Shown: in pieces, positions 49,326-62,645 of the stretch | Numbering within the stretch: position 1 is the first letter of the stretch | Layout: every line of letters begins with the position of its first letter | Source: Thioclava marina | GTDB lineage: Bacteria; Pseudomonadota; Alphaproteobacteria; Rhodobacterales; Rhodobacteraceae | Assembly (NCBI RefSeq): GCF_002020135.1 | Contig: NZ_MPZS01000002.1 | Span: forward strand, 558,001 to 622,000 | Length of the DNA stretch: 64,000 nucleotides | Direction: 5' to 3' | Notes under the pieces: model-generated | The model's input: the letters and a program-made list of their open reading frames with translations, nothing else | Databases searched by the model: none | Told to the model about the DNA's origin: nothing | Translations under genes and position numbers: made by a program

Positions 49326-49976
49326 TCAATGGGTTCCGGACGAGCCAAAGGAGACAATCGCCGCGCCGACTCGATCGTCACTATCCGCCCCAGACCAATA
49401 GGCGCGCGCTTCCATCCAGTCTTCCTCGGCAACCGGGTCACCGAAACCGGGATCGGAAACTTGACGGACTCCGAAATCCATATGCACGAGACGCCCCAGG
49501 ATCTCCATATCGTCAAGATCGATCGCGACTTCCAGCACGTCTCGCCCCACCACGATGCCTGAGCCAGTGTCGACAACGAGATAGCGACGAATAGCCGTCA
49601 ACAGGGCCTCTGCAGGATTCAGATCCGGCTCAGCCCCTTCTGCTTTCCCGAAGAGCCAGCGATGCGCATAGCTGCAGGCCTCATCCGTCAGCAGGACATA
49701 CTCCAACTCTTCTTCCTTGAACGGGCCTCTCCGCGCGATCATCTTGCGCGTCTCGAGAAAACCGCGCCCTTTGAGTTTCAGCGCCCCTTCGTAGCTCGTC
49801 GCACCATTTTCCAGCAGTTCGAGGATCGTGCGCAGCAATGGGTCAGCCAGCATGTGCTTGATACGGCGATAGACAAACCCATCCCCGAGTGCTCCGGCAA
49901 GACTGCGATCACGATGAACATACATCTCTCGATCGGAAATGAGCAGAAAACTCGGGTCGATTTCAGTTGCGGCCAT
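49326..49976 (-). CDS. Hypothetical protein
   Basis: A 216-aa soluble acidic protein, MAATEIDPSFLLISDREMYVHRDRSLAGALGDGFVYRRIKHMLADPLLRTILELLENG..., with no motif I recognise. The start is ATG 49976 because upstream sequence is intergenic with the divergent XRE gene. Being divergent from an XRE regulator, at the left side of the mobilizable element, makes it a candidate cargo or regulator-partner gene. Function unknown. Confidence 0.6.
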   Translation of the reverse strand: MAATEIDPSFLLISDREMYVHRDRSLAGALGDGFVYRRIKHMLADPLLRTILELLENGATSYEGALKLKGRGFLETRKMIARRGPFKEEELEYVLLTDEACSYAHRWLFGKAEGAEPDLNPAEALLTAIRRYLVVDTGSGIVVGRDVLEVAIDLDDMEILGRLVHMDFGVRQVSDPGFGDPVAEEDWMEARAYWSGADSDDRVGAAIVSFGSSGTH

Positions 49977-50052
49977 CGAGGAGGCTCCCTTTCGGATGAT
50001 AGATGAGCGAGCACACGAATGTCTCTTATAACCGGTAGAGTTAAAACCAACG

Positions 50053-50307
50053 TTGCGCGATTGCAAGGGGGTGAAACGAACGCCGAAAAGCCCCCTGCGC
50101 GACACGCTCGCGATCAACCTCAGATCACTGCGCGCCGAGCGCGGATGGTCGCAGGAACGTCTCGCACTCGAATCTGGTCTCAATCGAACCTATTTGAGCG
50201 CTGTGGAGCGTAGCGAGCAGAATATTTCTATCGACAATGTCTGGCGCCTCGCACAAGCGCTCGATATCGATCCTGCTTCCCTGCTCGAGGTGAGACAGCG
50301 GAGCTGA
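50053..50307 (+). CDS. XRE-family transcriptional regulator
   Basis: An 84-aa Cro/CI-type HTH protein: LRDTLAINLRSLRAERGWSQERLALESGLNRTYLSAVERSEQNISIDNVWRLAQALDIDPASLLEV. Start options are TTG 50053 and GTG 50071; neither has an ideal ribosome-binding site. It converges on the integrase gene and is divergent from the 216-aa hypothetical gene, so it may control either. Confidence 0.85.
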   Translation: MRDCKGVKRTPKSPLRDTLAINLRSLRAERGWSQERLALESGLNRTYLSAVERSEQNISIDNVWRLAQALDIDPASLLEVRQRS

Positions 50308-50320
50308 CCGCTCGCCCGGC

Positions 50321-51589
50321 TCAGAAAGCGATGGGCTCGAGGAGCTGCGCGATCACGGCCAACCGCCCACCCGCCCCGTAGCGCTCACGCCCCAGCGCAT
50401 GCCCCATCACGTCGCGCCGGATCCGCTCGTCGATCTCCGCCGCGAGCATGCGATCCTCGAGCGCGTGCCGCAGGCTGTAAAGCGAATGCCGATCGCTCTC
50501 AAGGAGGCCGGCCTCCCGGAGGTATCCGTTGACCGTGGCGCTCAGCGTGGCCGAGCTTTCGCGATAGCGCGAAAACCCCTCCGGAAATGCCCGCATCGCC
50601 TCGAGCGACACCCCGAGAAGCGGCATCACCCGCTCCGCATTCTGCGTCTTCAAAACCCGACCGATCGGCTGCAGGCGCAAATGCGGGATCGGGTCGTCGA
50701 GCCGGATCTCCTCGGGCCGCAGCGCCGCGATTTCGCTCGGACGCAGCCCGGTATTCACCATCACCAGCAGGATCGCCCGCGCTTGCGGCTCGAGACCATC
50801 CAGCGCTCCGGGGGCAAGCAACTGATCCCGGATCCACGCATCCGAGAACGGCGGTCGCCGCGCCGCCCTGCCTTGCCGGAAGCTAAGATCTTCGAGCGGC
50901 AGCTCGAGCCCGAGCCGCTTGTCGCGATTCACACGCTTGAGAACAGCCCCAAGATGCGTCAGATCCTTGTTTGCGGAATTCGCAGTGAGCCCATCACGCT
51001 CCAGCCGATCCGCCCACCAATCACGAAAATCGAGGAAATCGTCGATCGTGAGATCGGCCAGCGGCTTGTCTCCGACAACCGAGATGAAATTCTGCACCGC
51101 CTTGATATGCGGATAGCGCCACCGACGGATCTGATCTGCACTCTTGCCTAGGGTCTTGTCGCGCGCGAGCCCCCAGAAAAGCTCGAGCGCCCGCGACACG
51201 GTGATGAGCGGCAATTCCGCCCCGCCAAGAAGCGAATCTGCCCCGAGCGGATCGCGCATCTCGTCGCCAGCAGCCAGCTCGATACGTGCGAGCAACTCCT
51301 GCAACGGCAAACGCGCCACCTTGCTTGAATCGAGAAACCGGTAGCCCTGCACCTTCGCAAGCCGTTTGGCCGCAGCAAACCGCGCCTCCGCATCACCCGC
51401 AGCGCCGTCGAGCATCGCCTCCCAGGTCTCGACCTGCCGATCCCACAGCAGCGGCGCCCTCTGACGCGCCACCGCTTCCGAACCCGTCCGCAGGCTGATC
51501 ACCACCTCGCGGCGCGGATCGACCGGGGCATAGGCTTTGGGAACCCGCCGACGCAGATGCCAGACTTCGCCGCGCTTGGTGATATTCAT
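50321..51589 (-). CDS. int: Tyrosine recombinase/integrase
   Basis: A 422-aa phage-type site-specific integrase. The N-terminal MNITKRGEVWHLRRRVPKAYAPVDPRREVVISLRTGSEAVARQRA is the DUF6538 type common on alphaproteobacterial islands. The catalytic domain has MVNTGLRPSEIAAL (Arg box I), a YSLRHALEDRML box (H-x-x-R equivalent as S-L-R-H) and GHALGRERYGAGG with the Tyr nucleophile. It probably mobilizes the element that ends at tRNA-Phe. ATG 51589 was preferred over the longer upstream frame. Confidence 0.9.
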   Translation of the reverse strand: MNITKRGEVWHLRRRVPKAYAPVDPRREVVISLRTGSEAVARQRAPLLWDRQVETWEAMLDGAAGDAEARFAAAKRLAKVQGYRFLDSSKVARLPLQELLARIELAAGDEMRDPLGADSLLGGAELPLITVSRALELFWGLARDKTLGKSADQIRRWRYPHIKAVQNFISVVGDKPLADLTIDDFLDFRDWWADRLERDGLTANSANKDLTHLGAVLKRVNRDKRLGLELPLEDLSFRQGRAARRPPFSDAWIRDQLLAPGALDGLEPQARAILLVMVNTGLRPSEIAALRPEEIRLDDPIPHLRLQPIGRVLKTQNAERVMPLLGVSLEAMRAFPEGFSRYRESSATLSATVNGYLREAGLLESDRHSLYSLRHALEDRMLAAEIDERIRRDVMGHALGRERYGAGGRLAVIAQLLEPIAF

Positions 51590-52045
51590 CGCACACCTCC
51601 GGGAAAGGGCCCCCTGTGTATCACCATGTGTAGCACGAAAACCGCTCGGACGGGGCGGAATCCAGTCCATCTTATTGATTACGAATGATTCCGTTGCAAA
51701 TTTGACTCGCAATCCGGCGCGAATATGTCGGAGAGGAATTCCGATTTACTCTGAACCCACCTCTCATTCCGATGCCGCTCAGCCTTCATCGGGCGACAAC
51801 CAAATGAAGGCGTCATCATCCAGCCGAAAAATATTGCCAGGGTGGAGTTCTCCCCTGAAAGTGATCCACCGGCTGGGATACGTGTCAAAGGACATGGCTT
51901 GTCAAACGCAGGCAAGCGTTGCCGACATGCGATATCACTTTGGGGCGAGCGCCTTACGGAATTGAGTTTGGTCATTAAACTCAACTGGTCGCAGATCCAT
52001 CGACGATCACGACAACCGTATTATTCGATGTGACCGGCGACCGTC
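51590..52045. other. Intergenic stretch upstream of the integrase
   Basis: 456 bp with lower GC. It has no protein I recognise; the 101-aa antisense frame (51679-51984) has no motif. It probably holds the integrase promoter, and could hold an attachment site in the circular form, but I see no copy of the tRNA-Phe 3' end here. Confidence 0.45.
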
Positions 52046-52225
52046 TCAGCCCTCTGGCTCGGCAAGAGCTTTGGCAAGCAGGCGCCTGATCATCTCGGGT
52101 CGAGATGGCAGATCGTCTTCCAGCTTTCGTCGATCATCGAGTGCCTGGAGCATTTCTCGCGGCAGACGAAGATTCACCGCCTCTGTATCCACGCGAGGGC
52201 GACCTTTTTTCACCTTTTCTTCCAA
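52046..52225 (-). CDS. Small ribbon-helix-helix-like protein
   Basis: A 59-aa protein too short for a standard ORF cutoff: MEEKVKKGRPRVDTEAVNLRLPREMLQALDDRRKLEDDLPSRPEMIRRLLAKALAEPEG. The beta-strand TEAVNLRLP, a helix, then SRPEMIRRLLAKAL fits the CopG/Arc fold. TTG 52225 has GGAG 10 nt upstream; GTG 52213 is an alternative. It is divergent from the 162-aa gene, suggesting autoregulation or control of that gene. Confidence 0.65.
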   Translation of the reverse strand: MEEKVKKGRPRVDTEAVNLRLPREMLQALDDRRKLEDDLPSRPEMIRRLLAKALAEPEG

Positions 52226-52342
52226 AACACCAAATCTCCACTTGGTTTAACGGTTTTATGGTGCTATAAACATCGAGCGAAGGCAAGAGCTGCAACTCCT
52301 GCCAACGCTCTGACCACAGCCATCTCGGATAAGGAGACAACC

Positions 52343-52831
52343 ATGGCTACATTCCCGCTTATCACGCAGCTTCTGGCAAAAGAAGACGCAACCGACGATC
52401 AGGAACCGCGGATCCTGACCCTGTTTCCGCAGTTCTTCGAGGCCCTCGCTGAGTTCCTCGACTACGAGCAAGACCTGTCCCGCACTCAGAGCTGGGATCC
52501 GGCTTTCGCGGGCTGGCAGAGGGCCTCTGACGAAGCTCAGGTGCAGATGCTGCAACTGCAGGACCAAATCCTCGAACTGACGCCGCGCGTGCAGGTCGAG
52601 AAACCACTGAAACTGATCGCGTTCGGAGTGCGCCTTGCGATGCTGGACGAGGACGGCGAGCACCGCGAACGCTTCCGTGACCTCGTGCGGCGCCGCGGAA
52701 GCGACCTTCTCATTCCCGAGGTTTGCGACACCGATCGCGAAGTGAATGTCCTGCTCAAGCGGGCGCTGATCCTCTTCGATCAGCTGCTCGACGTCTTTTC
52801 GTTCGACGCGCTCGAGCAGGCCGAAGCCTGA
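52343..52831 (+). CDS. Hypothetical protein of the element's cargo
   Basis: A 162-aa acidic, mostly helical protein: MATFPLITQLLAKEDATDDQEPRILTLFPQFFEALAEFLDYEQDLSRTQ ... LLKRALILFDQLLDVFSFDALEQAEA. No known motif. ATAAGGAGACAACC gives a strong ribosome-binding site. It lies in the same direction as the GIY-YIG and FtsH-like genes, separated by a hairpin. Function unknown. Confidence 0.7.
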   Translation: MATFPLITQLLAKEDATDDQEPRILTLFPQFFEALAEFLDYEQDLSRTQSWDPAFAGWQRASDEAQVQMLQLQDQILELTPRVQVEKPLKLIAFGVRLAMLDEDGEHRERFRDLVRRRGSDLLIPEVCDTDREVNVLLKRALILFDQLLDVFSFDALEQAEA

Positions 52832-52846
52832 TCTTCCCAGATACCG

Positions 52847-52890
52847 CGTGCTCGGACACCGGCCCTCCTTGGGGCCCGTGTCCGAGCACG
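52847..52890. promoter_or_regulatory. Long perfect hairpin between two cargo genes
   Basis: CGTGCTCGGACAC pairs with GTGTCCGAGCACG, a 13-bp perfect stem with an 18-nt loop, 15 bp after the 162-aa gene stop. There is no T-run. It may be a terminator or an mRNA-stabilising structure, or a different palindromic repeat; its arm is not the TGCTCGAC arm of the 46-bp family. Confidence 0.5.
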
Positions 52891-52973
52891 CCTACCTGAA
52901 GGTCAATTGTGACCCGCTCGGGTGCGGTTTGCCGCGCCCGTTCACACAGCACAATTTCACGGAGGGCTCTCTC

Positions 52974-53909
52974 ATGGCCCAAACTTCCAAGACTACGATG
53001 ATCATCCGCGGCGAAACCCACCCGATCTGGCCCGGTCCCATCCATCCGCAATGGCACGCCGCAGCTGCCGAAAAGGGCTATCACGTGCTCGCGCGCGTGA
53101 AGAACAAGGACAACCTCGCCCTCGCATGCAAGAAGTGTCGGGGAACGTTCGTCTGCCGTCACAGCGTTCTGACAGGCTTCCAGCCGCAATGCCCCAACTG
53201 CAAGGAAGCACGCTGGATCGCCGATGCGAAAGTGAACCGCCTCACCTTTGTGAAGCGCGATGAAAAAGACCGGCATTACGGGCATTTCCTAGTGTCCTGC
53301 GGCCACACGAAGCGACTGCAATTCAGCCGAACGAAGAAGGTCGCGACCGAAGGCGGCGAGATCGTCTGCGAGAGCTGCACGATTGAGCGCTACAAACGCG
53401 AGGCGCGGGCTTACGGATGGGAACTGGTCGGCCCCGATCCCGAAGGTGACAATAACTATCGTCTTTATCGGCATGCGGACGGCTGCGGCGAGTCGTGCCG
53501 TGTCTTGATCGGCAATATGAAGACCCAGCGTTTTCAATGTCCCAGCTGCGGCAAAGGTTGGTCGAATGAACCGAGTTCGATCTATTTCGCGGAGATCGAT
53601 CTTGGCAAAAGAACCGTCCTCAAACTCGGCTTCTCCGGCAACACCTACTCGCGCTTCGAGTATCAGCTCTTCGTGCGGAAGGTGCTGCCATATCGGATCC
53701 TCGCCGAGATCCATTTCCCCACCGGGCGCGCTGCGCTGCGGGCGGAAAAGAAAGTCCACAAGCGCCTGATCGAGCGCTTCCCGGACGGTGTGGTGCCGCA
53801 CACGGTCTATCGTAAGCACCTCAAGGTGAAATCGGAGATCTACCGGCCCGAGTTGCGCGATGCCATCTTCGCCGAACTGGCTGAGGTCGAACGGCGCCTG
53901 AGCACCTAG
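52974..53909 (+). CDS. Zinc-ribbon protein with C-terminal GIY-YIG nuclease-like domain
   Basis: A 311-aa protein. Its first two-thirds hold several treble-clef/zinc-ribbon pairs: CKKC...CPNC, VSCGHTK...CESC and CGESC...CPSCGKGW. The last third, SSIYFAEIDLGKRTVLKLGFSGNTYSRFEYQL ... AEIHFPTGRAALRAEKKVHKRLIERF, matches the GIY-YIG fold of the T5orf172/Meiosis-type nucleases (I/Y...K.G.S.....R...). Such fusions occur on phages and islands and are likely DNA-binding nucleases. AGGAGG-like GGAGGG precedes ATG 52974. Confidence 0.7.
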   Translation: MAQTSKTTMIIRGETHPIWPGPIHPQWHAAAAEKGYHVLARVKNKDNLALACKKCRGTFVCRHSVLTGFQPQCPNCKEARWIADAKVNRLTFVKRDEKDRHYGHFLVSCGHTKRLQFSRTKKVATEGGEIVCESCTIERYKREARAYGWELVGPDPEGDNNYRLYRHADGCGESCRVLIGNMKTQRFQCPSCGKGWSNEPSSIYFAEIDLGKRTVLKLGFSGNTYSRFEYQLFVRKVLPYRILAEIHFPTGRAALRAEKKVHKRLIERFPDGVVPHTVYRKHLKVKSEIYRPELRDAIFAELAEVERRLST

Positions 53910-53986
53910 CCGATCCGAGGGCTCGTTTCAGGCATAGCCCCACACAACCTGCCTGCGAAACCTTCCCTTCCTCACATGACCTGAAC

Positions 53987-54007
53987 GGCCCCGCACCTCG
54001 CGGGGCC
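53987..54007 (+). terminator. GC-rich hairpin before the FtsH-like gene
   Basis: GGCCCCGC pairs with GCGGGGCC across a 5-nt loop, 78 bp after the GIY-YIG gene and 33 bp before the FtsH-like start. No T-run; it could be a leader structure instead. Confidence 0.35.
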
Positions 54008-54039
54008 GCCCTCCCCACTCACGCCGATTGGACCCTGCC

Positions 54040-56226
54040 ATGACCGACACATCTCTCGCATCGCCCTTGACTCTCACAGCGCCTCTTACCAATCCGCCCT
54101 GGGCTGCCCTCGCGCTCCGCGCGCTGGCCCGGACACAAATGCCTGACGACTCCGTCCCAACTCCGCTCCCTGACCTTACCGGGCTCGATCCCGAGGATCA
54201 GGCCGCGCTGATCGGCGACCATCTCGACGCTCTCGACGCAGAGCAGCGCGCGACTTCGACACCTGCCACAATTACCGATGAGGGCTCGCTCTGGGACGCC
54301 CACAAAGTCACGGGCCTGCGCCCGACCGAGCTCGCGATGATCCTGCGGCTGGCCGCGACCTTCGAAACGCAAGGTCACATCGACGCGCTCTTTGCGCCCG
54401 GCGCAGTCACACTGATGACCGGCGCCGGGGATCGCTCGGAACTGGACGACGCGGCAACGATCCTCAAAGACCACCTTCTGCCCGCCGACCGAGAGATCGC
54501 GCAGCGCCCGTTGAAAAGACTGAAGCAACACAAAGATCTGTCGATCCACACCCTCGGCGAGATGTTGCGGTCAGACGTCATGGCTGAGATCGAGGAACTG
54601 CTCGCAAGCACCGAGCCGCTGCTCATTCTGGTCCCTGATACGACCACGCTGCCCGACACCCTCGCTGAGGTGCTACCTGCCCCTCTGATGCTCGCGCCGC
54701 TCTCGCGCGAGATCATTCTCGCGCTGCTCCATCTGACCTACGCGCCCCCGGTATTCGCCAGGCTCCAAGCTCTGCTGCCGAGCAAGGGCGAGTTCGACGC
54801 GATCAGCGCCGCCGCGTTGAGCTTCGCCCTGCGCGCCCCGAGCGCCGAGGACGCCGCGCGTCGGATCACACGGGCCCTTCCGAAACCCGCGCCCACGCCG
54901 CAGGGGCCGACTCTTAACGATCTGGCCGGCGCCGGTGAGGCGCTGCTTACCGTCCGGCGCATCGTCGCGGATCTGGCGCTGTGGCGGAGCGGCGAGGTCG
55001 ACTGGTCTGACCTGACGCGATCGCTCTTGCTCTTCGGCCCGCCGGGCACGGGCAAGACCTATCTCGCCCGCGCTATGGGCAACTCGGCCAATGTGAGCTT
55101 TGTCTCCGCCAGCTTCGGCGAATGGCAAGCTGAGGGCCATCTGGGCAAGATGCTCGCAGCGATGCGCGCGAGCTTCGATGAGGCGCGCAACACCGCCCCA
55201 TCTATCCTCTTCATCGATGAAATCGACGCCGCCGGCTCTCGCTGGGCGCCCGACCGCCACAACCGCGAATATCGTCGCCAGGTCATCAACACCTTCCTGG
55301 CCGAGATCGACGCCACCGTCCGCGCGGAAGGTGTCATCATTGTCGGCGCCACGAATGACCGCAACGCGCTCGATCCCGCGATCCTGCGGCCGGGCCGCTT
55401 CGATCTGCATGTGCCCATGCCTCTGCCTGATGCCAACACGCTCATCGGCGTCCTGCAGACGCATGTCGATCTGCCCGACGACCAACTGCGTTCTCTTGCA
55501 CAGGCCGCCGTGGGGATGAGCGCGGCGGATCTTGATGCCGCGATCCGCACGGCGAAAAGCTCTGCGCGCGCGGAGAGGCGAGCGCTTGAAATCCTCGATC
55601 TGCACCGACAAATCGGCGGCCTTCAGCAATCGGACCCGGCGGTGATCTGGCGCACAGCAATCCACGAAATCGGCCATGCAATTGCCTTTACTCAACTGAG
55701 TCTCGGCTCCATCAGCCGCGTCCTGATCCGTCGCGACGGCGGGGGCGAGGCGCATCCGAAACCGACCCGCGCGATCCAAACGCTGGCAGATATCGAGGAC
55801 GAGCTGACCTTCATGCTTGCCGGGCGTGCCGCCGAACGGCTGGTGCTGGGCGAGGTCTCGGCCGGGGCCGGCGGCTCCGCAGACTCGGATCTCGCGCTGG
55901 CAACACGCCGCGCCATCGACATCGAAACGCGGTTCGGCCTCGGTCACCACGGCCATGTCTGGCTCAATGGCATCGACGAAGCAATCCTCCGCAATCCAGC
56001 CGTTTACGCGAAAGTCCGCAAGCGGCTGGCGACCGCCGAGCGGCGTGCAGACGCGTTGCTCGCTGCGCATCAGGATCGGCTCGAGGCTGCGGCGCGCGCG
56101 CTGTGCGAGCGCCGGGAACTGGATGGGCAGGCGCTTGCAGACCTACTTCGCCCCTCTCAGGAGGGGGCAGCTCTGACCCCTCTAGCGCCCGCGCCGGCCG
56201 AAGATCCCTCTCCACCGGGCGGCTGA
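54040..56226 (+). CDS. Soluble FtsH-like AAA+ ATPase with M41-type zinc peptidase domain
   Basis: A 728-aa protein. About 300 N-terminal residues have no transmembrane helix or recognisable domain, unlike FtsH. The AAA module follows: Walker A GPPGTGKT (residues ~333-340), Walker B SILFIDEIDAAGSRW and the second region of homology ATNDRNALDPAILRPGRFD. The peptidase part has the zinc motif HEIGH (from residue ~542, for HEAGH) and a probable third ligand Asp in GGSADSDLALATRRA. It should unfold and degrade proteins in the cytoplasm. It lies just upstream of the mobilization genes on the same strand. ATG 54040 was preferred over TTG 54028. Confidence 0.85.
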   Translation: MTDTSLASPLTLTAPLTNPPWAALALRALARTQMPDDSVPTPLPDLTGLDPEDQAALIGDHLDALDAEQRATSTPATITDEGSLWDAHKVTGLRPTELAMILRLAATFETQGHIDALFAPGAVTLMTGAGDRSELDDAATILKDHLLPADREIAQRPLKRLKQHKDLSIHTLGEMLRSDVMAEIEELLASTEPLLILVPDTTTLPDTLAEVLPAPLMLAPLSREIILALLHLTYAPPVFARLQALLPSKGEFDAISAAALSFALRAPSAEDAARRITRALPKPAPTPQGPTLNDLAGAGEALLTVRRIVADLALWRSGEVDWSDLTRSLLLFGPPGTGKTYLARAMGNSANVSFVSASFGEWQAEGHLGKMLAAMRASFDEARNTAPSILFIDEIDAAGSRWAPDRHNREYRRQVINTFLAEIDATVRAEGVIIVGATNDRNALDPAILRPGRFDLHVPMPLPDANTLIGVLQTHVDLPDDQLRSLAQAAVGMSAADLDAAIRTAKSSARAERRALEILDLHRQIGGLQQSDPAVIWRTAIHEIGHAIAFTQLSLGSISRVLIRRDGGGEAHPKPTRAIQTLADIEDELTFMLAGRAAERLVLGEVSAGAGGSADSDLALATRRAIDIETRFGLGHHGHVWLNGIDEAILRNPAVYAKVRKRLATAERRADALLAAHQDRLEAAARALCERRELDGQALADLLRPSQEGAALTPLAPAPAEDPSPPGG

Positions 56227-56612
56227 ATACGTCTTGGCGTCGACGCAACTTCCACCCGAGATCGGGCCCGAAATCACGCGCCGTCTAGGTTCTATCGCGC
56301 GACCGCGCGCGGAGCCGGGAGACCCGTCTGAAAGAGGAGACACCTCACGGTCGCAAAGCCTTCCCTCCGCAATCTGCGGTCAACACACCGGAAGACGGTC
56401 AACTTTTGGGATGGCAAGAGCACGACCCGATCATCGATGAGTTATCCACATTTTTTTTGCGTGAAACATTCCGTGGATCAACAGGAATCTGCGGTCCGCC
56501 CCCTCCGCAACCGACTGAAAACAGCTATAATTGAGGTGTCCCCAAGAGGGGGCATCCCCCGACAATTCGTCGCCCAATCAACGCGGAATCCCGCGCGCAA
56601 AGGAGAACTGCC
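56227..56612 (+). other. Non-coding leader of the mobilization block; candidate oriT/replication region
   Basis: 386 bp without a gene. It has a consensus DnaA box TTATCCACA (56444-56452) followed by a T-run, an inverted near-match CGTGGATCA (56472-56480), a TATAAT (56526-56531), and CCCC-AAGA-GGGG / GGGGG-CAT-CCCCC stems that share the central G-run (56540-56560). A strong AAAGGAGAA site precedes alpA. The position directly upstream of alpA-mobC-mobA makes it the likely home of oriT. Confidence 0.45.
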
Positions 56613-56813
56613 ATGAGCCAAGAACTCGCACGTTACTACACGATCAACCAAGTCGCCAGGATCTGCGGCGTCACCCGCCCGACCGTCGATCGCTGGCACC
56701 GCGACCGCCCCGACTTCCCGCGCAAGGTCCTCATTACTCCGGGCTGTGCGCGCTTCCGCGTGAGCGACATCGAAGCCTGGCTCGAGAGCCGCGAGGCACA
56801 GCTCGATGGCTGA
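56613..56813 (+). CDS. AlpA/excisionase-type HTH protein
   Basis: A 66-aa MerR-like winged HTH: YYTINQVARICGVTRPTVDRWHRDRPDFPRKVLITPGCARFRVSDIEAWLESREAQ. AlpA-type proteins of islands act as excisionase or prophage-type activators. It overlaps mobC by 8 bp, so it heads the mobilization operon. AAAGGAG sits 7 nt before the ATG. Confidence 0.88.
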   Translation: MSQELARYYTINQVARICGVTRPTVDRWHRDRPDFPRKVLITPGCARFRVSDIEAWLESREAQLDG

Positions 56814-57099
56814 GCGGCGAGAGACGGAGGTGAAGGTGCGCTTCTCTCAAAAAGAGATCGAGCGCATCGACACTGACAGGAAAGCTGCCGGGACGCCGAC
56901 GCGGGGAAGGTTCCTCCGGGAGCGGGCCCTCGACGGCACTTCGGAGAGCCGCACGCAGGCACACGACATCGCCGACCGCCTCGGTCGGCTCGGCATCGCT
57001 GTCAATCAGCTTGGTCCCGGATCTTCGGCGGGGGCGCGTGCCCTCGCCAAGGAGGTCCGAGAGTTGACGGCGGCGATCCGACGATGGTCGGAGGGCTGA
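56806..57099 (+). CDS. mobC: MobC-like relaxosome accessory protein
   Basis: A 97-aa protein. The N-terminal KVRFSQKEIERIDTDRKAAGTPTRGRFLRERAL is ribbon-helix-helix-like, and the C-terminal helix (IADRLGRLGIAVNQLGPGSSAGARALAKEVRELTAAIR) has the MobC/MbeC pattern (GxNxNQL-like as G-I-A-V-N-Q-L-G). It should bind oriT and help the relaxase. It overlaps alpA and is followed after 3 bp by mobA. Confidence 0.75.
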   Translation: MAERRETEVKVRFSQKEIERIDTDRKAAGTPTRGRFLRERALDGTSESRTQAHDIADRLGRLGIAVNQLGPGSSAGARALAKEVRELTAAIRRWSEG

Positions 57100-57102
57100 T
57101 CG

Positions 57103-58536
57103 ATGCGCGCCTTCACCAAGCGGCACGACCATGCAAAGTTCGTCGAGGATTATATTTTCCGAGACGGCGCCGAGCTGATTGGCGGCACGCTCGTCGCGGA
57201 AGGTCGGCATGACCTGCGGCTCCAGTTCGAGGAGCTGGGCCGCGGTCACACCTTCCTGCACATCACACTCTCGCTGCCCGCCGGCCTTTTCAAGGAGCGG
57301 GAGGACTGGCTGCAGATCGCGCTCACCCAGCTCGACCTGATGGGGCTCCCACCCTTTCAAATTCCTTGGTCTGCGGCCCGGCACCATGACGCGCACTGCG
57401 ACCACATTCACATCGCGTGTGTCCTGAAGACTTTCACCGGCATGCCGCTCAAACCGCGCCTGTCGCGGCGGGAAACGGACCGGAACCATCGGCAACTCGC
57501 AAAGCTCCTAGGGCTGCCTGTGCCCGAGTATTTCGACCCGTCCGTGCCGACACTCATGCCACCGACCCCGCAGCGAAATCTCAAGCCGAAGAAAGCCCAA
57601 GCGCTACACACGGCACTCTCGGAGACATTCGCGCAAAGCCCACCGACCACCATCGAGATGCTCGCCGCTCGCCTGCGCGATCGCGACGATCCGATCGAAA
57701 TCACGGTGGATCAGAACGTGTATGGCCGCGAGAGCTACCTCTTCGAAACATCCCACGGGACCCTCTATGGCGGTCGGCTCGGCGCAGCTTGGGAGCCCCG
57801 TCATCTTCATGCCCGCCTCGACCTTGCGATGGCCCTGTCCATCGTCGGGATCACCCTGTCCCTCCGCGCAATCCGCAACCAGCTGAAGGAGCTGACCGAT
57901 GCCAAACGAACCGACCACGATGAACCCCGCGACCGACCCGACGGTGATGAAAAATCTCCTGATCGCGATCGACGAGAAAACGGACAGCCTGATGGCGCTG
58001 CGGGAGCTTTTGAAACTGCTCGAGACGGAACAGTCGGATTTGGGCAAAGCGCTTCTGGACGCCCTTTCGATGATGACAACGGAACTTGGAGCGAACAGGA
58101 GTATCCATCACATGCACATGGACGCGCTCAAGGAATTCAAGAACGAACGCGAGGATCTCGTAGGACGAATGAACAAGCAAGAAGTTCAATTGAAGCAGAT
58201 CAAACTGAAGCTGAACCAAATCCTCAACATTTTGGGCTTACCGATGAGCTGAGCTTCGGCGCCTTTCTCGCGCGGGTGCTACGCCTCCTACGGTCGAACT
58301 TCCGAAAATGGCGGTGGCGCAAACTGGCGGATCGGCCAGCCCTCGGCGTGATGTTCGAGGCGGGTGACCAGGCCATCGTTTCCTCGCAAGGGATCGACAT
58401 TCTCAAGGACGGTCCCGATGCGGCGCGACTTGCATCCTTTTTCGAGCCGAGCCAAACTCATCCCGTTCCCGAGACTGACCCTCCAGAAGATTCGCCACCC
58501 GAGCCGTCACCCTTTGATGACGGACCGGGATTTTAG
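57103..58536 (+). CDS. mobA: MobA/VirD2-type relaxase
   Basis: A 477-aa mobilization nuclease. The N-terminal domain has a candidate nucleophile Tyr in KFVEDYIF and the metal-binding motif WSAARHHDAHCDHIHIACVLK (about residues 91-110), followed by PLKPRLSRRETDRNHRQLAKLLGL. The middle (about 265-385) is low-complexity, Asp/Arg/Gly-rich and shows poor codon bias because another gene is read there in a different frame. The C-terminal 90 residues become ordered again (FLARVLRLLRSNFRKWRW). It would nick oriT and lead the strand during transfer by a helper element. Confidence 0.85.
   Translation: MRAFTKRHDHAKFVEDYIFRDGAELIGGTLVAEGRHDLRLQFEELGRGHTFLHITLSLPAGLFKEREDWLQIALTQLDLMGLPPFQIPWSAARHHDAHCDHIHIACVLKTFTGMPLKPRLSRRETDRNHRQLAKLLGLPVPEYFDPSVPTLMPPTPQRNLKPKKAQALHTALSETFAQSPPTTIEMLAARLRDRDDPIEITVDQNVYGRESYLFETSHGTLYGGRLGAAWEPRHLHARLDLAMALSIVGITLSLRAIRNQLKELTDAKRTDHDEPRDRPDGDEKSPDRDRRENGQPDGAAGAFETARDGTVGFGQSASGRPFDDDNGTWSEQEYPSHAHGRAQGIQERTRGSRRTNEQARSSIEADQTEAEPNPQHFGLTDELSFGAFLARVLRLLRSNFRKWRWRKLADRPALGVMFEAGDQAIVSSQGIDILKDGPDAARLASFFEPSQTHPVPETDPPEDSPPEPSPFDDGPGF
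57899..58252 (+). CDS. Overprinted MobB-like protein encoded inside mobA in another frame
   Basis: A 117-aa protein read in an alternative frame of mobA: MPNEPTTMNPATDPTVMKNLLIAIDEKTDSL...ELLKLLETEQSDLGKALLDALSMM ... VLQLKQIKLKLNQILNILGLPMS-type helical C-terminus. An AAGGAG site ends 7 nt before the ATG. Third codon positions are G/C-rich in this frame but not in the overlapping mobA frame, which is low-complexity here. The protein is predicted helical/coiled coil. IncQ-type plasmids carry mobB nested in mobA in the same way, so a role in mobilization is likely. Confidence 0.72.
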   Translation: MPNEPTTMNPATDPTVMKNLLIAIDEKTDSLMALRELLKLLETEQSDLGKALLDALSMMTTELGANRSIHHMHMDALKEFKNEREDLVGRMNKQEVQLKQIKLKLNQILNILGLPMS

Positions 58537-58645
58537 TCGTCTGCGAAATGGAACCCCGGTGGAACCCCGAGCAGAAAATCACGCAAACAGCGTCAGATCC
58601 AGCGCAAAGCGAGACCGAAAACATGTTGTATTTCAGGGATTTAAG

Positions 58646-58721
58646 TGGTGCCCGGAGGCGGATTCGAACCACCGACACGCGGATTTTCAATCCGCTGCTC
58701 TACCAACTGAGCTATCCGGGC
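58646..58721 (-). tRNA. tRNA-Phe (GAA)
   Basis: On the complement the gene starts GCCCGGATAGCTCAGTTGG and ends in the encoded CCA after GGGCA. The anticodon loop reads TTGAAAA with anticodon GAA, and the T arm has GGTTCGAATCC. All four stems pair. The 3' end faces the mobilizable element, so it is the probable attachment site. Confidence 0.96.
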
Positions 58722-58820
58722 ACTTCGACCTGACGGTCTTGGTGGAGCGGTTACTAGACGAGGGCGCAGGGGCTGTCCAGAGGGATTTGACAGAAAATTC
58801 CGAGATCTCGCCAATCGATC

Positions 58821-59012
58821 TCAATGCGGTTTGCCGGGGGGCGTGTCCTCGCCCGCGGGGCCGCTCGGGGCGCGCTCTTCCTCGTCGGCGATATCGCCCG
58901 GGATGACGTAAGAACCATTGAGCCAGCGCGCCAGATCGACATCGGCGCAGCGCTTCGAACAAAATGGCCTATACTTGGGATCAGCATCCTTGCCGCAGAT
59001 CGGACAGCTCAT
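58821..59012 (-). CDS. yacG: YacG: DNA gyrase inhibitor / zinc-binding protein
   Basis: A 63-aa protein with the four-cysteine zinc site CPICGK...RPFCSKRCADVDLARWLNGSYVIP. YacG binds GyrB and inhibits gyrase in E. coli. It overlaps the RNase gene by 4 bp at the end of the infA-maf-rng-yacG chain, a standard Rhodobacterales arrangement. Confidence 0.95.
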   Translation of the reverse strand: MSCPICGKDADPKYRPFCSKRCADVDLARWLNGSYVIPGDIADEEERAPSGPAGEDTPPGKPH

Positions 59013-60061
59013 GTCGCCTCCCCGTTCTGGCCCGGCAAAAGACGCGCGAGCGGCACGCGGTCGCGCTTGCGCTGCATCTCGAAATTGCCAAGCGGCGTCC
59101 AGCCAGCGAGAGCGGCTTCGGGTTCGCCCTTGATCGCGCGTTGCAGCTGCTGTTCGAGCGCCTGTCGGTCGCGTTTGGGCATCGGCGCGAAGTCGATCGC
59201 GATCTGGCCGCCAAGCCCGCGCAGGCGCAGCTGGCGCGGCAGCTCGCGTGCGGCGGCGATATTGGCTTTGAGCGCCGCGGCGGGCGTCGTGTCATTGCCG
59301 GTATTCACATCGACGGCGATCAGGGCACGGGTCGGCTCGATCATCATATGAGCGCTGCCGGGCAGCTCCACGCGCGGGGACAAAAGCGCTTCGATCGCAT
59401 CTGTCGCGCCGTGATCGTCAAAGCCGCCCTCGATCACCTCGTCGGGGACCGGATCGGCCCAATCGCGCCAAGCCTCTTCATGCGGATCGGGCGCATCGAC
59501 GAGCAGTTCGGGGCCACCCTCGAGATCGCCCGTTACAGCCTCGGCCAGCTCGCGCATCGCAGCGACATCCTCGCCGACCTCTTCGGGCGAGGCATGAGCG
59601 GCGGCCGAGCGCAGGATCACGCCCATATCAGAGCCCTCCATCACCGCCGTCGCGACCGCCTGCAACTCTTCGCGTAGGTCGTCCTCGCGGATGCGGCGCG
59701 AGACGTTGATGCCGGGCGCGCCGGGGGTGACGATGGCGAGGCGCGATTTGAACAGTACCCGCAGCGTGACGGGAAGCGCCTTGCCCGGCTCGGTGCCGCC
59801 CGAGACCATGCAGATCACGCTTTGGCCCGGCGCCAGCCCCTTGGCCTCGCGCAGGAAGCCGCGCGTGCCGTCGGGCAGATCGACGAAGACACCACCCTGC
59901 CCTTTCATCTGACGCCCCACGACGCCGCGCAGGATCGCTCCGGGCGCGAAGGGCACCTCGTCGGAGGCATCCACGATCAGGTCTTCAAGCTGGCCATCCA
60001 CCATCAGCGCCGCCGCTTCGCGACCGCCGATCTCGTCCAGCAGAACCACGCGTCCCTTCAT
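59009..60061 (-). CDS. Ribonuclease E/G family protein
   Basis: A 350-aa endoribonuclease, shorter than E. coli RNase G. It has the S1-like N-terminal part ([31 protein letters not shown]) and the catalytic core around [47 protein letters not shown], with the metal-binding Asp residues (D in VDVNTG, D in IDFAPM). It overlaps maf by ATGA. The Zn-link and C-terminal scaffold of RNase E are absent. Confidence 0.92.
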
Positions 60062-60630
60062 TCCACCTCTCCCCGGATGCCTGCACTTGCGAGCAGGTTT
60101 GCGGTCTCGGCCAGCGGCAGCCCCACGACGCCGGTAAACGACCCCTGGATCCACGGCACGAAGGCCCCGGCCCTCCCCTGGATGCCGTAGCCACCGGCCT
60201 TGCCGTGCCATTCGCCGGACGCGAGATAACCGTTCACATCCTCATCGCTGAGCGGCTTGAACTTTACTACCGTATCGACAAGCCTCTCGCGCAGCCCATC
60301 CACGGTGCGCACCGCAACGGCCGTCAGCACATGATGCCGACGCCCCGAGAGCAGCCAGAGAAACTCCGCCGCCTCTTTCTCGTCTTCGGGTTTGCCGAGG
60401 ATTCGGCGCCCGCAGGTCACCGTGGTATCGGCGCTCAGGATGACCTCGTCACCGGAGATCGTCAGCGCCATCGCCTTCTCGCGGGCCATGCGGGCGACAT
60501 AATCGCGCGCGGGCTCGCCCTTCAAAGGCGTCTCGTCGATATCGGCGGGGCGCACGTCATGCGGTTCCAGCCCGAGCTGGGCCAGAAGTTCGCGCCGTCG
60601 CGGGCTCGCCGAGCCGAGGATCAGCTTCAC
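60058..60630 (-). CDS. maf: Maf-family nucleoside triphosphate pyrophosphatase
   Basis: A 190-aa protein with the Maf signature [19 protein letters not shown] and [22 protein letters not shown], and the [15 protein letters not shown] segment. It hydrolyses non-canonical or excess NTPs (dTTP/UTP in the YhdE type) and affects septum formation. It overlaps infA and the RNase gene by 4 bp each. Confidence 0.96.
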
Positions 60631-60845
60631 TTGAAGCGGTAGTTGATACGACCCTTCGTCAGGTCGTAGGTGTTCATTTCCACCTGAACCTTGTCGCCAG
60701 CCAGAACACGGATGCGGTTCTTGCGCATCTTGCCTGCCATATGCGCGATGATCTCATGGCCGTTTTCCAGCTCGACCCGAAACGTCGCGTTAGGCAGGAG
60801 TTCCTTCACGACACCGGGAAATTCGAGCATTTCTTCCTTGGCCAT
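60627..60845 (-). CDS. infA: Translation initiation factor IF-1
   Basis: A 72-aa S1/OB-fold protein, [72 protein letters not shown], essentially complete and canonical. The start is ATG 60845, the second in-frame ATG. The TnpB gene ends only 136 bp upstream, in the infA promoter region. Confidence 0.98.
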
Positions 60846-60939
60846 GGTCACTCCATACTTGGTTACCCGCGCCAGTTGCGGGCGAGCGTTAAATGCGCCC
60901 GCGGACCGAGAAATTCAAGGGAAATATGAACCTTCCGCC

Positions 60940-61080
60940 ATCATTCCAATCGGAAGAGGCGGTTTCAGGTCAGAACAGGTCTAACCTACGGCCGTCCCGG
61001 CCGCTCTGTTCACTTCGGCACGTTTCGCCTCAGTGCTAGCTTCGAAACGAAGCCCCCACTGGAGAAGAACACGGGCAGAA
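60940..61080 (-). ncRNA. Candidate omega RNA / right end of the TnpB element
   Basis: In IS200/IS605 elements the guide RNA is transcribed in the tnpB direction from the tnpB 3' end through the right end. Here the tnpB tail contains a perfect 6-bp stem with a 3-nt loop at 60989-61003, and the guide would start in the infA upstream DNA just below 60981. The exact boundaries are not visible. Confidence 0.4.
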
Positions 61081-62225
61081 GCTTCATCCCGTCCCATCTT
61101 GCAACCGCAACTGCAAGAATGCTCGCGCTCAGAAAGAGCCTTTTTCCTCATAGCGCCACATTCAGGGCAACATTGGGAAGGCTTCAAAGCGCGCGTGGAC
61201 GCTTCAAGTAACTCCGCACCAGCTTCTTCCGCTTTGTATCGGAGCATGTTCAAAAATGTTGAGGGAGCCGTATCGAGAATCGCTCGATTGAGACCCGCTT
61301 TCTGGGCCACGTTTCGCCCCGGAGCCTTGGCCGTGCCGCGCGCAGAGCGCGTCATATTTCGTGGGCTTAGCATTTCGGTCGCAATAAACCGGTGCTTTGC
61401 GACTAGCTCTTGAGACACCTTATGAAGAAAATCCTTACGCCGAGCCGAAATCTTTGCATGTTTCCGCGCAAGGGATTTGCGATGTTTACGCAGAGCCCTC
61501 GAAGAGATTTTTCTTTCACGGGCTACGATGGAAAGGCTACGCTGCGCTTTACGAAGATCTTCAGCCTCGGTCGCTAGATGCCGAGGATTGTGGATCACCT
61601 CGCACTCACCCGCCTCAGTCGCGATCGTCGCGAACTCTGACACCCCCCAATCCAAACCGATTGCAGGACCATGAGCGCGTTCACGCTGCGCACATCCGGT
61701 TTCTACAACGAGATTTAACATCCAACCGCGTGCCGCGCGGATGACATCCGCCTTCAGAACTCGTCCAGGCGTCCGTGCAATGCCACGCATCCGCATTCGA
61801 CCAATGCCGAAGAGGGTAACGAACCCGTGGCGGCCACCGACTCCGATCTCGACCTTGAAACCATTGCCATGCTGCTTATACCCCCAACCCCTAAACCTCT
61901 CTGGGGCACGGAAGCGCGGAAATCCGGGAGCACCACCATTTCTTAGTCGACGAAAGAAGCCGGAGAACGCAAGATCGAGGCGCTTAAGGACAACCTGCGC
62001 TTCGTGTGTGTGCACATATGATGACCAACTTGGCACATCTGACCGGATGAACTTGAGCGCTTTTTCCTGATCTGAAAGCCAGATGCGCACGCCCCGGCGC
62101 CACGCTCCAATCCGCTCCTCAAGCGCTGCATTCCAGAGATCGGCCAGAAGGCAGTGTTTATGCCAAAGAGACGCTGCCTGAGAGCGGCTCGGGTAGATTT
62201 TATAAGAAAGGGATCTAATCTCTGA
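60981..62225 (-). CDS. tnpB: TnpB, RNA-guided nuclease of the IS200/IS605 type (no tnpA)
   Basis: A 414-aa TnpB counted from MSEIRSLSYKIYPSRSQAASL (further ATGs at 62234 and 62267). The RuvC residues are present: Asp in AIGLDWGVSEFATIAT, Glu in RFIATEMLSPRN and Asp in CKMGRDEASARVLL. The CPECG...CSCGC zinc finger is intact. TnpB uses an omega RNA from the element's right end to cut DNA. No tnpA transposase is nearby. The 3' end folds into CGGCCG-TCC-CGGCCG (60989-61003), the expected right-end/omega-RNA hairpin, overlapping the last codons (NRAAGTAVG). Confidence 0.9.
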   Translation of the reverse strand, partial: SEIRSLSYKIYPSRSQAASLWHKHCLLADLWNAALEERIGAWRRGVRIWLSDQEKALKFIRSDVPSWSSYVHTHEAQVVLKRLDLAFSGFFRRLRNGGAPGFPRFRAPERFRGWGYKQHGNGFKVEIGVGGRHGFVTLFGIGRMRMRGIARTPGRVLKADVIRAARGWMLNLVVETGCAQRERAHGPAIGLDWGVSEFATIATEAGECEVIHNPRHLATEAEDLRKAQRSLSIVARERKISSRALRKHRKSLARKHAKISARRKDFLHKVSQELVAKHRFIATEMLSPRNMTRSARGTAKAPGRNVAQKAGLNRAILDTAPSTFLNMLRYKAEEAGAELLEASTRALKPSQCCPECGAMRKKALSEREHSCSCGCKMGRDEASARVLLQWGLRFEASTEAKRAEVNRAAGTAVG

Positions 62226-62645
62226 CATTGAAGCCATTATAAAAAAAATCAAAATAAATCGCAACATAAAAATAATAACTCATTAAAATAACACCCACAC
62301 CAATCCTCAAGGCCGATTAGAGAAAAACAAAACAAGCGCCACCAGAGACAACACCAAGTCCCAAAATAATAAAACGCTAATCGAAAATCTTTCGGGACCA
62401 ATACACTTAAATAATAAATAATTTTTGGAAATTCGTGTGGCGAGGAAACTCACCTTAGCTCATAGCTTTGGTCCAATTGGCCAAGAGTTACGAGGATGCG
62501 GCGCACCCAAGAAATCAGCACCGTGCTCACTCAGATGACAAGAGACGAAAGCCGGACCCAAAGTCAAAATTTGCCGTCTGCGGCAAACCAGGCCTCTCCT
62601 TCCTTCAACTCCCTTGGTCCTGACGCTTCTCGCCACTCCCGAAAG
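62226..62645. other. AT-rich tract upstream of tnpB
   Basis: From about 62226 to 62430 the sequence is extremely A/T-rich (long runs of A and ataataa), unlike the rest of the window. No gene is visible on either strand. It could be the left end of the TnpB element and foreign DNA carried with it. 62440-62645 returns to normal composition and is also without a recognisable gene. Confidence 0.5.

Follow-up and report, generated by a model that had tools for sequence, protein, structure and literature searches.

RepX-type antisense RNAs are known for repA of IncQ plasmids, together with FinP for traJ (PMC8136791, available sections). There, RepX is described as a 75-nt RNA antisense to the repA-repC ribosome-binding site (RBS) and start codon. 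It was predicted and probed as two stem-loops, mutations in it raise copy number, and its partner FinO sits on another plasmid (PMC8136791, same sections). Here, a related RNA is described from Thioclava marina, in a window of 64,000 nucleotides (contig NZ_MPZS01000002.1, positions 558,001 to 622,000; the window is the whole stretch analysed, and its own numbering is used throughout). The RNA lies over the start of P, the first gene of an operon that also encodes a protein with putative zinc ribbons and a GIY-YIG domain, in what we call the nuclease slot, and a soluble AAA+/M41 protease (Table 1). Computation shows that a conserved antisense-strand RNA structure, kin to the IncQ RepX RNA, covers the start of P; its expression is predicted from the sequence. 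The antisense RNA at this place is new. Searches of an open-access collection listed no title on a RepX-like RNA outside FinP and IncQ, and none on this gene set.

Like RepX (IncQ/RSF1010, RF00043) and FinP, the predicted RNA is about 75 nt long, forms two stem-loops and is antisense to an RBS and start codon. The anti-Shine-Dalgarno in loop I, the ATGGCT start and TATCA at +18 to +22 are also shared. Unlike in those systems, the target is a nuclease-protease operon rather than repA or traJ, the module's host genome has no FinO/ProQ-domain match, and the RNA scores below the Rfam gathering score.

The protein components have described counterparts as well. Like FtsH and other M41 AAA+ proteases, the protease combines an AAA core with an M41 domain bearing HEIGH, and its motifs are intact. 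Unlike FtsH, it lacks a membrane anchor, appears to have an extra N-terminal AAA-like module, and reaches 194 bits against the FtsH NCBIfam model, whose cut-off is 600. IetAS and sgiAT (AAA ATPase plus subtilisin protease) also couple an AAA ATPase to a protease on mobile elements. However, the protease here is of the M41 type and in the same chain, is accompanied by a nuclease and P, and scores 89 bits against the IteA model (cut-off 510); no subtilisin-type gene, the criterion for IetAS, occurs among the operon's open reading frames (ORFs). SNIPE, an anti-phage nuclease, likewise places a GIY-YIG protein in a bacterial conflict setting. In the available part of its description it is membrane-bound with DUF4041 (PMC13190303), whereas the protein here has three putative zinc ribbons and shares an operon with AAA-M41.

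An antisense-strand RNA structure over the start of P

The region between P and the divergent ribbon-helix-helix (RHH) gene, with the first P codons, is conserved far above P itself. Within it, Rfam model RF00043 (Plasmid_R1162) matches 52274-52350 (32.9 bits, E 9.5e-4; reported on the plus strand). In the window, the minus strand folds to two stem-loops with a minimum free energy of -42.8 kcal/mol (z -6.5), against -23.3 (z -2.2) for the sense strand. The minus strand of the IncQ site forms the same two stem-loops (-46.4 kcal/mol, z -6.0). Across 66 loci, exactly two hairpins occur in 65, and mean z is -5.25 for antisense and -2.42 for sense. A stability margin of at least 3 kcal favours the antisense strand in 64 of these loci and the sense strand in 1, and a sense-strand cis-regulatory structure in the leader was rejected on this count. 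The 66 loci were retained from 78 called P starts after 11 were removed by eye as wrong (several of these loci show the leader) and 1 as near-identical. The choice of start favoured ATGGC or ATGAC, not TANCA, and one poor row (L139) was kept.

The pairing is also supported by covariation. Among 36 antisense sequences, both partners vary in 19 of 28 pairs, and the covariation score of 0.366 compares with 0.206 for shuffled controls (0/500 as high) and 0.09-0.18 for slid ones. RNAalifold on the first alignment returned no pairs, probably from misaligned arms. Alignment A11 holds 99 rows fitted to the model, 15 of them partial, opposite-strand or weak, and the 36-sequence covariation is the cleaner count. 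For RNA research, the loci supply a RepX-like RNA in a deep alignment of natural sequences. Two search models, R1 (built on the sense strand, 19 training loci) and R2, were trained without the IncQ site. Both find it at repA (L315; R1 47.8 bits, R2 48.8 bits, E-values rough), and R2 scores the window RNA, a training sequence, at 78.1 bits. On an IncQ1 plasmid, the RF00043 motif is placed where urfF ends and the RepA helicase gene begins; 164 plasmid records have the motif.

A short element inside P is fixed in position. TANCA lies at +18 to +22 in 58 of the 66 loci (other offsets reach at most 2) and also in IncQ repA. A conserved N-terminal peptide of P was rejected as a protein motif, because T18 and C21, which are fixed, fall on wobble positions, whereas the second codon position, +20, varies freely and allows T, I, S, N or G at residue 7. 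On the minus strand, TANCA reads TGnTA, about ten bases ahead of the RNA start. TGnTA is an extended -10 motif, and we propose that it serves as the extended -10 of the antisense RNA.

The RNA is apparently a wider regulator of mobile-element genes that this module uses, because R1 and R2 matches stand at varied genes beyond the module. Of 86 chosen sources that have a slot gene, 82 contain R1 (counting its 19 training loci); of 14 that have none, R1 occurs in 2, the P-bearing L128 and the IncQ locus. It matches 27 of 148 Rhodobacterales genomes and led to further divergent modules at L355 (AAA and M41 over cut-off) and L351 (M41 just under). The matches at L350, L353 and L354 lie at prophage-like genes, as judged by eye, and the weakest, L358, precedes a tuf-like gene and may be chance. 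Across the class, 25 of 376 alphaproteobacterial genomes have R2 matches (E<=0.001), with up to 11 places in one, and the ORFs at the site differ among the 11 loci that were read. RepX-type antisense RNAs would thus reach beyond repA and traJ to a larger set of alphaproteobacterial genes on mobile elements.

Some R2 matches stand apart. G414 has 11 places, G719 and G639 5 each, and G415 4; two of these that were read (L362, L364) precede small unknown ORFs. A weak match in Agrobacterium (L192:1986-2058, minus strand; 24.1 bits, E 0.006) coincides with the beginning of a 383-aa gene, downstream of which lies a split AAA/Zn-protease pair.

Gene order, nuclease slot and protease across genomes

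On plasmids and islands alike, the same order recurs: an RHH gene on the opposite strand, a ~160-aa helical P, a nuclease and the AAA+-M41 protease. Linkage was examined in 390 Rhodobacterales genomes (AAA-M41 threshold E<=1e-50), with two AAA candidates scored per genome, so AAA-M41 counts are lower bounds. GIY matches occur in 48 genomes, P in 21 and AAA-M41 in at least 65. AAA-M41 follows on the same strand within 3.5 kb in 47 of 65 GIY matches, fragments included. The 26 P matches have GIY downstream in 22 cases, AAA-M41 after something else in 3 and neither in 1. Five plasmid loci carry P-GIY-AAA in widely differing surroundings, an RHH being annotated in three of the five, and Martelella also has the module (L006, L008). 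A CopG ribbon-helix-helix protein is annotated at the matching place in L039, L041, L042, L044, L045, L198 and L199. Among the fetched loci, which are redundant, the RHH family has matches in 88 and the P family comprises 121 ORFs.

These results bear on the original prediction, which was made from the window sequence. Its three ORFs and the divergent RHH gene stand where it had placed them. Genes that do not travel together had been named beforehand as a refuting outcome; the test favours the prediction, since the genes keep together on islands and plasmids whose neighbouring genes differ. No single fixed housekeeping gene precedes AAA-M41 in the loci examined. The swappable slot and the antisense RNA lay beyond the reach of a prediction made from the window alone.

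What occupies the slot varies. After identical protein stretches only were dropped, 115 AAA anchors were left, and close relatives remain among them. For the 98 with at least 2.5 kb upstream, the slot gene is GIY in 61, PD-(D/E)XK in 17 and a 455-aa protein of unclear kind in 1; 19 have none, 7 of these being Hyphomicrobiales or Rhodospirillales. P accompanies 49/61, 15/17, 1/1 and 1/19 of these classes, respectively, and RHH 42, 10, 0 and 0. In a 95-row AAA-M41 tree (simple model, quick search; 'none' labels include loci cut by contig ends), the labels GIY, PD-(D/E)XK and other require 8 changes. When PD-(D/E)XK is set against all other rows, 'none' included, the well-supported branches require 6 or more changes of that label. 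GIY-YIG and PD-(D/E)XK types can take each other's place in the nuclease slot, and the whole is a recurring mobile module in which differing nuclease folds are plugged into one protease/P chassis. Between the window and G204, P has 88% DNA identity up to a break within its last codons, and the GIY and AAA proteins are 42% and 47% identical; one recombination is visible at the end of P.

The GIY-YIG assignment had been made for the window protein, which itself matches no GIY-YIG Pfam model. It is nonetheless probable from the relatives, of which 12/45 match T5orf172 (best E 1.5e-5) and 12/45 MUG113, and from conserved residues. The putative zinc ligands C55, C73, C76, C109, H111, C132, C135, C171, C189 and C192 are invariant in 45 members, and C52 is kept in at least 90%. 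In the core, Y204, K217 and G219 are invariant and R227 and E258 are kept in at least 90%; active-site residues of the GIY-YIG domain are among them.

The PD-(D/E)XK slot protein matches PDDEXK_5 in 6 of 14 members, L196 scoring above the cut-off, and has invariant E, D and QxK. It shares these residues with the group I intron-associated PD-(D/E)XK endonuclease, the name under which the Sulfitobacter protein (L196) is annotated. Unlike that enzyme, it lies in an operon and not in an intron. A homing-endonuclease reading of the slot was rejected, as slot proteins are in operon position and not within genes. A third slot protein (L100/L012) was labelled CoiA-like by eye; it is not claimed as a nuclease, because Pfam gives DUF7830 below the cut-off only.

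A few further loci extend the picture. L346 (G131) has the leader, an RHH-like and a P-like gene and then a 239-aa protein without a Pfam match, a possible further slot type. At L167:9024-10196, a 390-aa AAA protein is instead encoded downstream in a GIY/P locus that lacks AAA-M41. On Hyphomicrobiales plasmids (L191, L193, L194, L197), soluble AAA-M41 relatives adjoin metallophosphoesterases, and L191 also has a 3'-5' exonuclease; these are possibly further phosphoesterase-protease pairings. L191 and L197 have TIR, Kiwa KwaB-like and AAA plus S8-peptidase genes nearby.

The protease has Pfam matches to AAA (1.8e-31) and M41 (8.2e-11), with catalytic motifs intact in the window; simple regular expressions detect the full set of three AAA/M41 motifs in 65 of 80 long family proteins. 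It has no transmembrane-like stretch (maximum Kyte-Doolittle-19 value 1.56), in agreement with the anchorless FtsH-like enzyme first proposed. Its AlphaFold model (pLDDT 76.6) has an alpha/beta domain at the N-terminus in place of membrane segments. Residues 284-706 match FtsH (7zbh; Z 29.6, root-mean-square deviation (rmsd) 3.0 over 345 residues). Three of the 50 matches listed, p97 (7lmz, 9yrc) and NVL (9bji), start at residue 96-97 and run across two AAA rings (Z 21.8-23.3, rmsd 11.6-13.1). The N-terminal part has no Walker A, which is matched there in 1 of 80 family members. The ~300 N-terminal residues, previously left unassigned, are likely a degenerate, seemingly inactive AAA module ahead of the active one, because of the two-ring p97/NVL matches and the missing N-terminal Walker A.

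P is modelled by AlphaFold as five helices (pLDDT 81.5, both ends of low confidence). Its last residue is nonpolar in 0.97 of 60 sequences. A nonpolar C-terminal pair occurs in 35/60, compared with 39/324 for other genes; the count is 18/34 after 40% clustering, and shuffling within the tail never gives more than 23. Such nonpolar C-termini are a mark of FtsH/Clp substrates. P moves with the protease: in 26 complete GIY loci, distance correlations are 0.73 for P-AAA, 0.71 for slot-AAA and 0.65 for P-slot. At protease identity 0.4-0.5, P identity is 0.28 for both the 56 GIY pairs and the 37 pairs of differing nuclease type, and at 0.35-0.4 it is 0.26 and 0.24. Because P is similarly alike across and within nuclease types at matched protease identity, it more likely follows the protease than the nuclease type, as would a protease partner rather than an antitoxin for one nuclease.

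These comparisons bear on an addiction or stability function, in which the nuclease would be a toxin and P its labile antitoxin, comparable to antisense-RNA systems or to island stabilisation by AAA/protease pairs of the sgiAT/IetAS type. The nonpolar tail of P suggests lability, mobile elements carry the module, and sgiAT is a precedent (PMC5006074, available part). However, a nuclease-specific antitoxin should track nuclease type, which P does at most slightly, in the lowest identity bins, and few P-nuclease pairs go without AAA (6 intact loci with space for it). We consider an addiction function distinctly unlikely. P as an MbeD/MobD mobilization protein was also rejected, the Pfam match being weak (19.5 bits, cut-off 21.6) and confined to the window sequence (1/39 members). 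In L108, L109 and L114, where the slot is PD-(D/E)XK, P is seemingly tandem-duplicated (319-351 aa, by eye).

Function of the module

The favoured reading is a conflict module gated by copy number or entry. The divergent RHH protein and the cis antisense RNA over the RBS and start of P would be two silencers of the operon. In a stable carrier cell, repressor and RNA would together hold expression low. Entry into a naive cell, a change in copy number or loss of the element would shift the balance, and P, nuclease and protease would be made. P, with its flexible tails and variable helical core, may be a protease partner, either adaptor or labile substrate. The protease would set the activity or lifetime of the interchangeable nuclease, whose target may be the nucleic acid of a competing phage or rival element, or of cells losing the element. 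We hold it to be an even call that the locus is a mobile, self-contained operon of P, nuclease and soluble AAA+/M41 protease that serves conflict or maintenance and is silenced by the RHH protein and the RepX/FinP-like RNA. Whether copy-number RNAs gate conflict genes becomes directly testable.

Several observations weigh against this reading. The RF00043 gathering score of 55 is reached neither by the window (32.9) nor in any of 148 genomes. A sigma-70 consensus promoter scan of 52180-52480 found none on either strand, and no ProQ/FinO-domain match (PF04352, E<=0.01) occurs in the own genome. The control P coding stretch (+7 to +66) also leans antisense (-16.8 vs -12.3), though less, and the RNA class also precedes unrelated genes. 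A table in a 2025 review gives IncQ no antisense system (PMC12361487), contrary to PMC8136791. For gene linkage, slotless anchors make up 19 of the 98, and in 6 intact GIY loci the downstream sequence, about 6 kb or longer, contains no AAA-M41. For P, the best fold match (Z 12.4) is helical and uninformative, the window protein ends in QAEA and so fails the two-residue nonpolar criterion, and P is slightly less alike across than within nuclease types in the two lowest bins (0.20 vs 0.23, 0.18 vs 0.21).

A more specific version of the gated conflict module is an RNA-addressed weapon between elements. The IncQ copy-number RNA would have been recruited as an immunity signal, so that carriers stay silent and the operon fires in a naive or competitor-bearing cell. 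Exchange of nucleases and RNA loops would yield new specificities, amounting to nuclease-enforced incompatibility. We rate this version as unlikely.

Strict anti-phage or anti-plasmid defence would make the nuclease an effector and the AAA+ protease its sensor or activator, with the antisense RNA only limiting cost. The set of a nuclease, an unfoldase-protease and small regulators had been proposed for defence, anti-defence or maintenance. It fits the anatomy, but P and the nuclease match 0 PADLOC families at E<=1, and the protease resembles IetA models through its ATPase domain only (93 bits). At E<=1e-10, 141 sampled module-neighbour proteins match 103 PADLOC families and 145 proteins around control integrases match 35; these are not counts of defence genes, because many families match one protein and the controls are more chromosomal. 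The 25 shown of the 103 families include pAgo, type I methyltransferase, BrxB, AbiEi, PD-T7-1 and MzaB, and control neighbours also match HerA, Cas2 and QatD. The neighbourhood enrichment is only suggestive. The two AAA-M41 relatives near TIR and Kiwa KwaB-like genes on Hyphomicrobiales plasmids speak for defence, whereas no phage-inducible feature was seen. In viral contigs, none of 29 pattern matches is a GIY protein relative, and profile A4 gives, among the matches listed, core-domain relatives only. We judge strict defence somewhat unlikely; because the PADLOC comparison is uneven in these ways, defence, inter-element competition and addiction are all kept in consideration.

The carrying element and its insertion site

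The module lies between an integrase and a block of helix-turn-helix (HTH), NikA-like and relaxase genes (Table 1). The nearest of 16 same-genus genomes by one flanking protein (94%) is G396. There, an integrase-side block (window 49925-51744, 92%) and a tRNA-Phe block (58629-61000, 93%) stand 232 bp apart. The segment between them in the window has no counterpart at this G396 site; the remainder of G396 was not searched. The arrangement agrees with the earlier description of the genes as cargo. In the sister species G099 (L094), the module is followed by HTH-NikA-relaxase-like DNA and a decayed tRNA-Phe 3' fragment (L094:10675). The element is most readily understood as mobilizable and integrative, with its site at tRNA-Phe, because of the G396 site without the segment and the decayed fragment in G099, though the left end of the window element has no exact tRNA-Phe direct repeat of at least 12 nt, the sole 12-nt repeat lying elsewhere.

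Such an element could use nuclease and protease for its own housekeeping, regulating integration, replication or transfer (for example, clearing relaxase or repressor after entry), with the antisense RNA as literal IncQ-style copy control. RNA kinship to IncQ copy control agrees with this, as do the 3 recombinases, 3 Mob_Pre and 2 relaxases among the 141 sampled neighbour proteins. However, neighbours differ between loci, several plasmids (e.g., L040, L043) have no recombinase or relaxase annotated within 8 kb, and G396 retains the integrase at the site that lacks the module. Housekeeping is, in our estimate, improbable.

Table 1. Features of the module, its antisense RNA and the carrying element in the window.
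Feature	Position	Strand	Basis or remark
Tyrosine recombinase (DUF6538 + phage integrase)	50321..51712	-	Pfam; relatives in 32/121 genomes
Segment missing at the corresponding G396 site	51745..58628		Flanking homologous blocks 232 bp apart there
Divergent ribbon-helix-helix (CopG-like), 59 aa, TTG start	52046..52225	-	Coordinates are our reading of the searches
Predicted RepX/FinP-like antisense RNA, two stem-loops, over RBS and start codon of P	52273..52350	-	
P, 162 aa, five helices; proposed to be an adaptor or a labile regulator for the protease	52343..52831	+	AlphaFold, family
TGATA (TGnTA), proposed extended -10 of the antisense RNA, within codons 6-8 of P	52360..52364	-	
Three putative zinc ribbons + probable C-terminal GIY-YIG (T5orf172/MUG113-type), swappable slot	52974 or 52977..53909	+	
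Soluble AAA+ (probable degenerate AAA ~96-280, active AAA ~290-530) + M41 zinc protease	54040..56226	+	728 aa
HEIGH motif of the M41 zinc protease	55663	+	
HTH_17/excisionase-like protein	56613..56813	+	
NikA-like mobilization protein	56806..57099	+	
MobA/VirD2-like relaxase	57103..58536	+	24.8 bits, cut-off 24.6
tRNA-Phe, likely attachment site	58646..58721	-	

Beyond the tRNA gene, an ORF at 60981-62267 on the minus strand resembles IS200/IS605 TnpB by eye, a candidate that we presume from its motif.

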